Of a stretch of DNA of 64,000 bases, positions 44,642 to 57,965 are shown piece after piece. Location: NCBI RefSeq assembly GCF_000473145.1, contig NZ_KI421500.1, positions 992,225 to 1,056,224 of the forward strand, in the 5' to 3' direction. A program made the translations under genes and the position numbers. The stretch comes from Leisingera daeponensis DSM 23529 (lineage in GTDB: Bacteria > Pseudomonadota > Alphaproteobacteria > Rhodobacterales > Rhodobacteraceae). The first letter of the stretch is position 1. Each line of letters begins with the position of its first letter. The notes beneath the pieces are model-generated. The model was not told the DNA's origin, made no database searches, and saw only the letters and a program-made list of their open reading frames with translations.

Positions 44642-45238
44642 TCAGAACTGCAGCGTGATCTTTTCCAGGTTCTGCTCCAGCCGGACAGTGCGGTTCGCCT
44701 CTTTGGCCGCTTCGGGCAGCAGCGCGAACTGCACCAGTGCCGGCGTGATTTCGGCGTTGGAAGTGCCGCCGCTGACCCGCGCCCACAGCTCATCATCCAC
44801 ATTCAGCTTGCTGCCTTCGCCCATCACCGTCCATTTGCCGTCGGCGCAGAAGACCTTGACCGTGCCGCCATAGGGCAGCGCCGTTTCAAGGCACAGCGCC
44901 GCCAGCAGGGAAAGGCGGGCCTCGCTGCGGGTGCAGCCCTCCAGCGGCGACCACTGGTACTTGATGCGCCCGCCCTTGCTGATGTCCTCCAGCAGCGAAA
45001 CGATTTCGGCCCGCGCCATCTGCTGATCGCCGGCCGCGCCAAAGGCGACGCGGAAGAAGCGGATGCGCGCATTGGCGTTCGCAACGCTGTCGGAGATCAG
45101 CTCCAGCTCCGGGCCCGACATGCTGCCGGCCATGCCCAGCAGTTCCAGACCGTTATTGATGGCGCCGACCGGGCTGATCAGATCATGGCAGATCCGGGAC
45201 CCTACCAATGCCGCCAGATTGGCGTTATCTACACCCAT
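44642..45238 (-). CDS. chpT: ChpT-type histidine phosphotransferase
   Basis: In Caulobacter and Roseobacter relatives, ChpT passes phosphate from the hybrid kinase CckA to the response regulator CtrA. The 198-residue protein shows LVGSRICHDLISPVGAINNG with the phospho-accepting His18, and a degenerate kinase-like second domain (ARLSLLAALCLETALPYGG) without ATP-binding boxes. In this group CtrA usually governs flagella, motility, c-di-GMP and gene-transfer-agent genes. The gene is divergent, 34 bases away, from a DUF3553 gene. Confidence 0.9.
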   Translation of the reverse strand: MGVDNANLAALVGSRICHDLISPVGAINNGLELLGMAGSMSGPELELISDSVANANARIRFFRVAFGAAGDQQMARAEIVSLLEDISKGGRIKYQWSPLEGCTRSEARLSLLAALCLETALPYGGTVKVFCADGKWTVMGEGSKLNVDDELWARVSGGTSNAEITPALVQFALLPEAAKEANRTVRLEQNLEKITLQF

Positions 45239-45455: not shown

Positions 45456-45561
45456 CGGTTGATGAAGGGTTAACGAACTCCCTCGAATTAGCCTTAAATG
45501 CCGCGCACTCTTTGCCCCAAGGGCAGGCTGCGCTCAAGCCTGAAACATGCAAGGAAAGCGA

Positions 45562-57165: not shown

Positions 57166-57888
57166 GCTTTGCCCCTTCTCAAGCACTCGTCGTTCATGTG
57201 TCGCGGTGCCCCCGCACCATCCAGCCCCGGCCGCAGACCGCACAAACATTCCTGCGCCCGCCGCATCTGGCGCACTTGAGGCCCTCGCCGGCCATTCTTC
57301 CCAGGACTGAGTGCTGTTTTTCAGCGTTGTTGCTGCGGCTCTAGAACCCACCAGATTTAGTGCCACCGCAACCGGTGAACACAATTTGGCGTATTCTGAC
57401 ACAAGGGGTCAACGCTAAATTTACGTCTTGGAAAGGATCTTTGCTGTTGACGCTTTCCGCGGTTTGCCGGGTCGCTCAAACCGCTTCGATTCATCCACAG
57501 GCCAGCTTCATTTCCGCACCTTCCGGCCTGCTGGCCAAGACCCGGATTTTCTAGTGTCAGGCAAGTGACTTGCCGGCTTCCGGGCGAAACACGCCGGCTT
57601 TGAATACCGGGCCGTGACAGGATTTTTTCAACACCTCCCAAGGCGGTAGCGGGAAAAAGCGTTAACGGTGGCCTTACCGTGGCGTCACGCAACCGGCGGC
57701 AAGCCGTCTGCGCAACTATTAAGATTTTGACGCGCCTCCGCAGCAATTGATTAAAGAAGCCTTAACAGGAGGTTAAGAAGGTATTAATGCTCCTGATTGC
57801 AAAGGCATTCTATTGCTCTCCAAAAACGCGAAACGATTCCCGCAGGGCTGCTGCCCCGCGAAGATTCGCCACTATATTTGGTGTGGAA
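57166..57888 (-). promoter_or_regulatory. Long upstream region of nrdJ
   Basis: About 720 bases between nrdJ and tRNA-Pro, with no supportable gene on either strand (the frames present are low-complexity and lack ribosome sites). It contains the TTAA array at 57751-57787 described separately. No cobalamin riboswitch B12 box and no clear NrdR box could be found by eye. A gttaac (57661-57666) lies in its middle. Confidence 0.4.
57751..57787. promoter_or_regulatory. Tandem CtrA-type binding sites (four TTAA at 11-bp spacing)
   Basis: TTAA occurs at 57751, 57762, 57773 and 57784, each separated by exactly seven bases. This gives three overlapping copies of the CtrA consensus TTAA-N7-TTAA, the first with the preferred trailing C (TTAAC). 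The 11-bp period places all half-sites on the same face of the helix. CtrA is known to use this consensus in Caulobacter and Roseobacter relatives; binding here is inferred. Confidence 0.6.
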
Positions 57889-57965
57889 TGGTCGGGGCGG
57901 CGAGATTCGAACTCACGACCCCCTGTACCCAAAACAGGTGCGCTACCAGACTGCGCCACGCCCCG
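57889..57965 (-). tRNA. tRNA-Pro (anticodon TGG)
   Basis: Minus strand: acceptor cggggcg/cgccccg, discriminator A, encoded CCA (57889-57891). The anticodon loop TTTGGGT gives TGG, the T-loop is GTTCGAATC, and the D arm GGCGCAGTCTGGTAGCGCA is regular. It reads CCA/CCG proline codons. Confidence 0.97.

Follow-up and report, generated by a model that had tools for sequence, protein, structure and literature searches.

Four TTAA elements at an exact 11-bp spacing lie between tRNA-Pro and nrdJ, the gene of a B12-dependent ribonucleotide reductase, in a stretch of 64,000 nucleotides from Leisingera daeponensis DSM 23529 (the window). Are they sites of the cell-cycle regulator CtrA and, if so, is nrdJ their target? 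The sequence-only reading had proposed both. The positions that it gave for TTAA (57751, 57762, 57773, and 57784) are all correct, and they form three overlapping TTAA-N7-TTAA matches, starting at 57751, 57762, and 57773.

The array and its conservation in Leisingera

The minus-strand order is cold-shock-domain gene, DUF192 gene, tRNA-Pro, array, nrdJ (Table 1). The ATG of nrdJ (57165) is 586 bp from 57751, and tRNA-Pro is 102 bp from 57787, as the earlier estimates of 585 and about 100 bp had it; likewise, no conserved gene of ordinary size is found between the array and nrdJ, where no gene had been expected. tRNA-Pro is located within 1.5 kb upstream of nrdJ also in 63 of 96 other genera.

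Table 1. Features of the nrdJ locus and the second reductase gene (window coordinates unless a locus is named).
Feature	Position	Strand	Evidence
nrdJ, B12-dependent (class II) ribonucleotide reductase, 1214 aa	53521..57165	-	NF005736 equivalog, 2211 bits (cut-off 1737)
NrdR-box-like palindrome, proximal nrdJ control region	57348..57363	-	11/16 against the NrdR-box consensus
Second NrdR-like box, 31 bp farther upstream	57379..57394	-	11/16 against the NrdR-box consensus
TGTGGATGAATC, DnaA-box-like stretch overlapping a GANTC site	57488..57499	-	invariant in 20/20 genus loci
Fifth TTAA, 32 bp past the array towards nrdJ; possible -10 or repressor half-site	57719..57722	-	kept in 18/20 genus loci
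Conserved block between array and fifth TTAA (TTGCYGC...GCRTCA); possible core promoter	57723..57750	-	2.82 changes/column against 5.6-6.2 in flanks; similar block in second genus
Four TTAA half-sites, 11-bp spacing, towards nrdJ (TTAAT-N6-TTAAC-N6-TTAAG-N6-TTAATCA)	57751..57787	-	sequence; genus conservation; constraint against spacers
tRNA-Pro (tgg), upstream neighbour, same direction as nrdJ	57889..57965	-	annotation; Rfam tRNA
Second class II ribonucleotide reductase, 765 aa	L151:3583-5880 (G000:C2, ~1.90 Mb)		TIGR02504, 603.5 bits (cut-off 399.95)

The window (63% GC, 34 TTAA) contains three TTAA-N7-TTAA pairs, every one in the array; shuffles of the window have a mean of 0.03, and none of 100 has three. 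Genome-wide (4.64 Mb), 26 such sites are seen, three of them in the nrdJ array, which is the only run of three or four TTAA at 11-bp spacing. Were the TTAA density of the window uniform, the genome would be expected to contain about 4e-7 quadruple arrays, a value that is too low because TTAA clusters (uniform density predicts about one pair, and 26 are seen). The control pattern AATT-N7-AATT occurs 21 times, so that the 26 TTAA pairs are no clear excess; triples of the control are present in 8 of 21 genus genomes, and TTAA runs of three at places other than nrdJ in 4 of 21 (G002, G003, G005, G006). As the pair motif is not clearly above the control, and control triples occur in these 8 genomes, the weight of the evidence is in the conservation of the array, not in its occurrence.

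A lack of conserved spacing among relatives had been named beforehand as evidence that would refute the proposal; within the genus the proposal passes this check, as at least three of the four TTAA stand in register in 20 of the 21 Leisingera genomes. All four are found in 15 genomes: 14 of the 20 loci in the alignment of nrdJ upstream regions, plus one genome (G017, locus L022) whose contig ends inside nrdJ, kept off the alignment and counted in the 21-genome tally; duplicates (L046, L074, and L075) were removed. Five loci (L011, L013, L014, L017, and L020) retain three exact half-sites in register; L019, with a single half-site left, is the sole Leisingera genome below three. The last half-site of the window's own species is TTAATCA, not TTAACCA. 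The array pattern matched 11 named contigs, from seven Leisingera, two "Rhodobacteraceae bacterium", in one of which (L142) the array likewise lies between tRNA-Pro and nrdJ, and two gut Firmicutes, whose matches are taken as chance.

Parsimony on the nrdJ gene tree gives 0.88 changes per column for the 16 TTAA columns, against 4.9 for the interleaved spacers and 5.6 and 6.2 for the flanks; none of 20,000 random column sets was as low as 0.88. Such a comb-like pattern of constraint is expected of a DNA-binding repeat. A chance TTAA run without function would agree with the genome-wide count of the pair motif, which is not clearly above the control pattern; given the genus-wide conservation and the selective constraint, with TTAA letters kept over spacers, chance is extremely improbable. 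Judged from sequence, the array is a real, selected, genus-specific tandem box of CtrA type.

CtrA as the candidate regulator

The genome encodes CtrA (NF045991 equivalog, 434 bits at a cut-off of 350; 74% identical to Caulobacter CtrA) and also ChpT (PF10090), the latter at 44642-45238 and hence, as had been noted, in the same window as the array. The array has the half-site, the 7-bp gap, and the TTAAC polarity of the CtrA full site TTAA-N7-TTAA of Caulobacter and Rhodobacterales, but it consists of four contiguous phased half-sites, not two, and lies some 560-600 bp above the gene. The earlier equation of the array with CtrA full-site sequence holds: the TTAA letters are conserved, CtrA and ChpT are encoded, and a CtrA-type motif model recognises the array. 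The elements look like CtrA half-sites, and their status as candidate sites is supported.

The motif model was built from 44 promoters of MshEN-domain glycosyltransferase genes with TTAA-N7-TTAA; these promoters were chosen because other quadruple arrays of the family lie there. They were read in 50 of 110 genomes with a match (L185-L234), and the pair was seen within 300 bp in 44 of the 50 (27/30 and 17/20); the window genome's own promoter of this type (L215) is without it. Because the TTAA pattern itself also served to select the training sites, the model is independent in flanks and polarity only. The motif has a polarity (TTAAC-N6-TTAACC, A being favoured at 27 and 28 bases past the start). 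Scores in the sense of nrdJ exceed those in antisense (Leisingera means 21.6 and 16.6) at 19 of the 20 Leisingera loci, all but L008, and at 7/7 loci of a second genus described below; among all positions of the window, the array's three sites on the nrdJ-sense strand rank second to fourth. By this model, the half-sites would be directed towards nrdJ. We infer that the training promoters are themselves controlled by CtrA. The top model score in the window, 19.4, belongs to TTAACCCTTCATCAACC (45459-45473, minus strand), about 220 bp upstream of chpT, and is a possible feedback site.

The genome has 23 other full sites, and the neighbour gene was scanned for 15. Six of the 15 adjoin ftsZ, a MotB-plug gene, dnaB, a PAS_5 gene, and two PAS or kinase genes, neighbours that fit known roles of CtrA; the remaining nine neighbours show no obvious relation or lack a Pfam match.

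Regulators of the OmpR/PhoB type bind 11-bp direct repeats side by side, and in the tandem pho boxes of PhoB, an OmpR-family regulator, such repeats are extendable in tandem. The array shares this 11-bp tandem layout, while its sequence and regulator differ. As 11-bp direct repeats suit any OmpR-family protein, the array might be used, instead of by CtrA, by a different OmpR-type regulator or by a general DNA-shape protein. We regard this as very unlikely: the letters kept are precisely those of the CtrA half-site, the model derived from other promoters fits, and a Dinoroseobacter motif, TTAAC-N5-GTTAAC, has the same spacing (available text of PMC7232146).

Between the array and the gene, the DnaA-box-like TGTGGATGAATC is invariant in the genus, and the related form TGTGGA[TGA]GAATC is seen in 17 of 96 other genera. 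We do not claim DnaA control of nrdJ, since other genera carry TGTGGAGGAATC, which is not a DnaA box. CtrA sites cluster at the Caulobacter replication origin, and an origin reading of the array was considered for that reason; DnaA-like boxes number one per nrdJ upstream region in the genus (700 bp, both strands, 20 loci), and an origin element is unlikely here.

Candidate targets of the array

The sequence-only reading had taken nrdJ for the only visible ribonucleotide reductase, which does not hold genome-wide: a second class II gene is present elsewhere in the genome, its product about 33% identical to the window's NrdJ over some 200 residues. Similar secondary matches occur, among those listed, in many genomes of the family. 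The class I small subunit (NrdB, PF00268) has no match in the genome.

The nrdJ upstream region from about -275 to -160 is conserved (1.37 changes per column) and, with its NrdR-like boxes, is likely to be the main nrdJ promoter. NrdR-regulated promoters carry two 16-bp palindromes about 31 bp apart; the boxes here, each of 11/16 and 31 bp apart, may be of this type. A box of at least 11/16 is found in the same interval in 89 of 96 other genera, and of at least 12/16 in 76, whereas shuffled consensus sequences give means of 7.9 (11/16; maximum 34) and 1.2 (12/16). Leisingera has the weaker form, 11/16 in 19 of 20 loci and 12/16 in one. The boxes, at about -200 relative to nrdJ, are closer to the gene than the array by nearly 400 bp and are far more widely conserved; from this comparison, the array is not the ordinary promoter of nrdJ. 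In its NrdR-type boxes, the proximal region resembles other ribonucleotide reductase genes under NrdR control, with the CtrA array as a putative extra distal input.

A conserved RNA-fold signal is seen in the nrdJ leader (57166-57370, minus strand; z of about -4.5 to -6 relative to shuffled columns), with 41 pairs, four of them showing compensatory change, in 19 of 20 genus loci (L009 left out); the leader has no Rfam match in the window or in six relatives searched. In the window's species the leader also has a zinc-ribbon-like frame, which was rejected because, by eye, indels break it in relatives.

For the array itself, a role in nrdJ control is probable on the evidence above. We lean, on balance, towards a tandem double CtrA box that would act as a distal CtrA-dependent promoter element directed at nrdJ, adding a cell-cycle input. 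Its four head-to-tail half-sites, on one face of the helix, would accommodate two adjacent CtrA~P dimers, and RNA would start near 57726-57730, about 560 bp upstream of the nrdJ start codon; this start is predicted from the site nearest nrdJ, because activating full sites in Caulobacter begin near -35 to -39 (available text of PMC4287350). Input from CckA-ChpT-CtrA would thereby be added to a gene with NrdR-type proximal control. The simplest expectation, if a weakly founded one, is that transcription reads through from the array into nrdJ. A sigma-70-like promoter was not found by consensus scan.

Conservation covers the array and the promoter-like block but not most of the 200 bp that follow, so the product of the array need not be nrdJ. 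CtrA might bind the array and drive a short non-coding RNA of its own, terminated ahead of the nrdJ promoter; its end could be marked by a short conserved segment between about -420 and -400, and a loose terminator-like hairpin at -500 to -350, present in 7 of 20 loci (L003, L005, L007, L009, L015, L018, and L019), could end such a transcript before nrdJ. We hold this RNA to be unlikely. Rfam gives no match after the array in the window, RNAalifold yields 0.0 kcal/mol for sense windows from -540, -480, and -420, no terminator common to the 20 genus loci is found between the array and the proximal nrdJ region, and no sense frame of 20 codons is common to most loci before -340. The sole sense frame of at least 20 codons common to most of the 20 loci past the array is a 25-codon GTG frame (-333 to -258, 18/20 loci), by eye without wobble-type variation; a 129-codon TTG frame of the window is absent from the frames listed as common to the genus loci. 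Over the array, RNAalifold gives at most -2.6 kcal/mol, with z-scores that are meaningless because the shuffles do not vary. A small RNA or small protein from the array was also considered as a candidate and rejected, there being no conserved structure, ORF, or common terminator in the next 200 bp.

CtrA might, alternatively, bind the array and damp nrdJ or read-through from tRNA-Pro, by repression, delay, or titration of CtrA. The fifth TTAA, at a possible -10, resembles CtrA half-site repression as described in the accessible parts of PMC4287350 and PMC6180460. At the Caulobacter pilA promoter, as far as the available text of PMC11264516 goes, several CtrA sites share one control region, as in the array, but the four pilA sites are degenerate and irregularly spaced (31, 3, and 78 bp), unlike the exact spacing at nrdJ. 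According to the same partial text (PMC11264516), the upstream pilA sites repress, and artificial close-packed copies of CtrA sites gave no rise in expression, with three copies lowering it. Taken by analogy, the pilA result is the strongest published caution against assuming activation at the nrdJ array. The TTAACC polarity downstream and the conserved block are like those of other CtrA-type promoters, and we consider damping to be rather improbable.

Deoxynucleotide supply is already known to be tied to the bacterial cell cycle through DnaA and NrdR. Among the passages available, NrdR represses ribonucleotide reductase in Caulobacter and elevated dNTPs are held to prolong its swarmer phase (both PMC12186491), while DnaA directly regulates Caulobacter nrdB (PMC3193534). 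The latter is, as proposed here, a cell-cycle factor acting on a reductase, but there the factor is DnaA and the enzyme is of class I, whereas the array concerns CtrA and a class II enzyme. No link of CtrA to a ribonucleotide reductase promoter appears in the available parts of PMC6180460, PMC7232146, PMC4287350, PMC11264516, PMC9437464, PMC6538847, PMC12186491, PMC3193534, PMC3019208, PMC6472365, PMC7117780, and PMC10532879, and a literature search that left subscription journals mostly outside, with sources seen in part, found no direct CtrA input to ribonucleotide reductase. CtrA in this family is usually discussed for motility, division, and gene-transfer agents; the proposed element, if true, would link it to DNA precursor synthesis. 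Conservation of the array suggests, without proving it, cell-cycle timing of the supply of DNA building blocks.

Other genera and the origin of the array

None of the 96 other genera examined has the array at nrdJ, and six have a single TTAA-N7-TTAA pair there; the 96 are those read upstream, mostly the nearest in nrdJ, among 144 other genera with an nrdJ match. An nhmmer profile of the element puts one locus alone above noise (L061, 16.6 bits; next best 8.6 and 7.8). In the genus of this locus, the second genus referred to above, TTAA-N7-TTAACC lies about 590-605 bp upstream of nrdJ in 7/7 genomes, and all seven have a Leisingera-like block downstream of the single site. Because the second-genus site matches the two half-sites nearest nrdJ, the array probably grew upstream: a single full site would have been extended to four half-sites in Leisingera. 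Loss of half-sites in the second genus may be an alternative.

The complete reading, in which CtrA directly times the class II reductase through a genus-specific double box, the phosphorelay and NrdR act from separate regions, and the array has grown from a single site, is put forward tentatively, with somewhat less than even confidence. If it is true, two, three, and four half-sites form a natural series for the study of tandem promoter tuning by OmpR-family regulators.

Of 395 family genomes, 8 have a quadruple TTAA array somewhere, and 7 of these lie outside Leisingera; the AATT control, with 5/395, is barely rarer. No neighbour of the MshEN-glycosyltransferase type was recognised for the arrays in L172, L181, and L184, and in L171 the array lies 44 bp ahead of a gene whose MshEN match falls just under the cut-off. 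In L174, L182, and L183, the array is between carA, which adjoins the MshEN-glycosyltransferase promoter at these three loci checked, and the MshEN-glycosyltransferase gene, 48 to 50 bp from the latter. With quadruple arrays at this gene in three genera, tandem double boxes therefore recur at one other CtrA-type promoter. This promoter has a single site in most genera, and its expansion to four half-sites in the three seems, from the sequences compared, to parallel that proposed for the unrelated nrdJ array.
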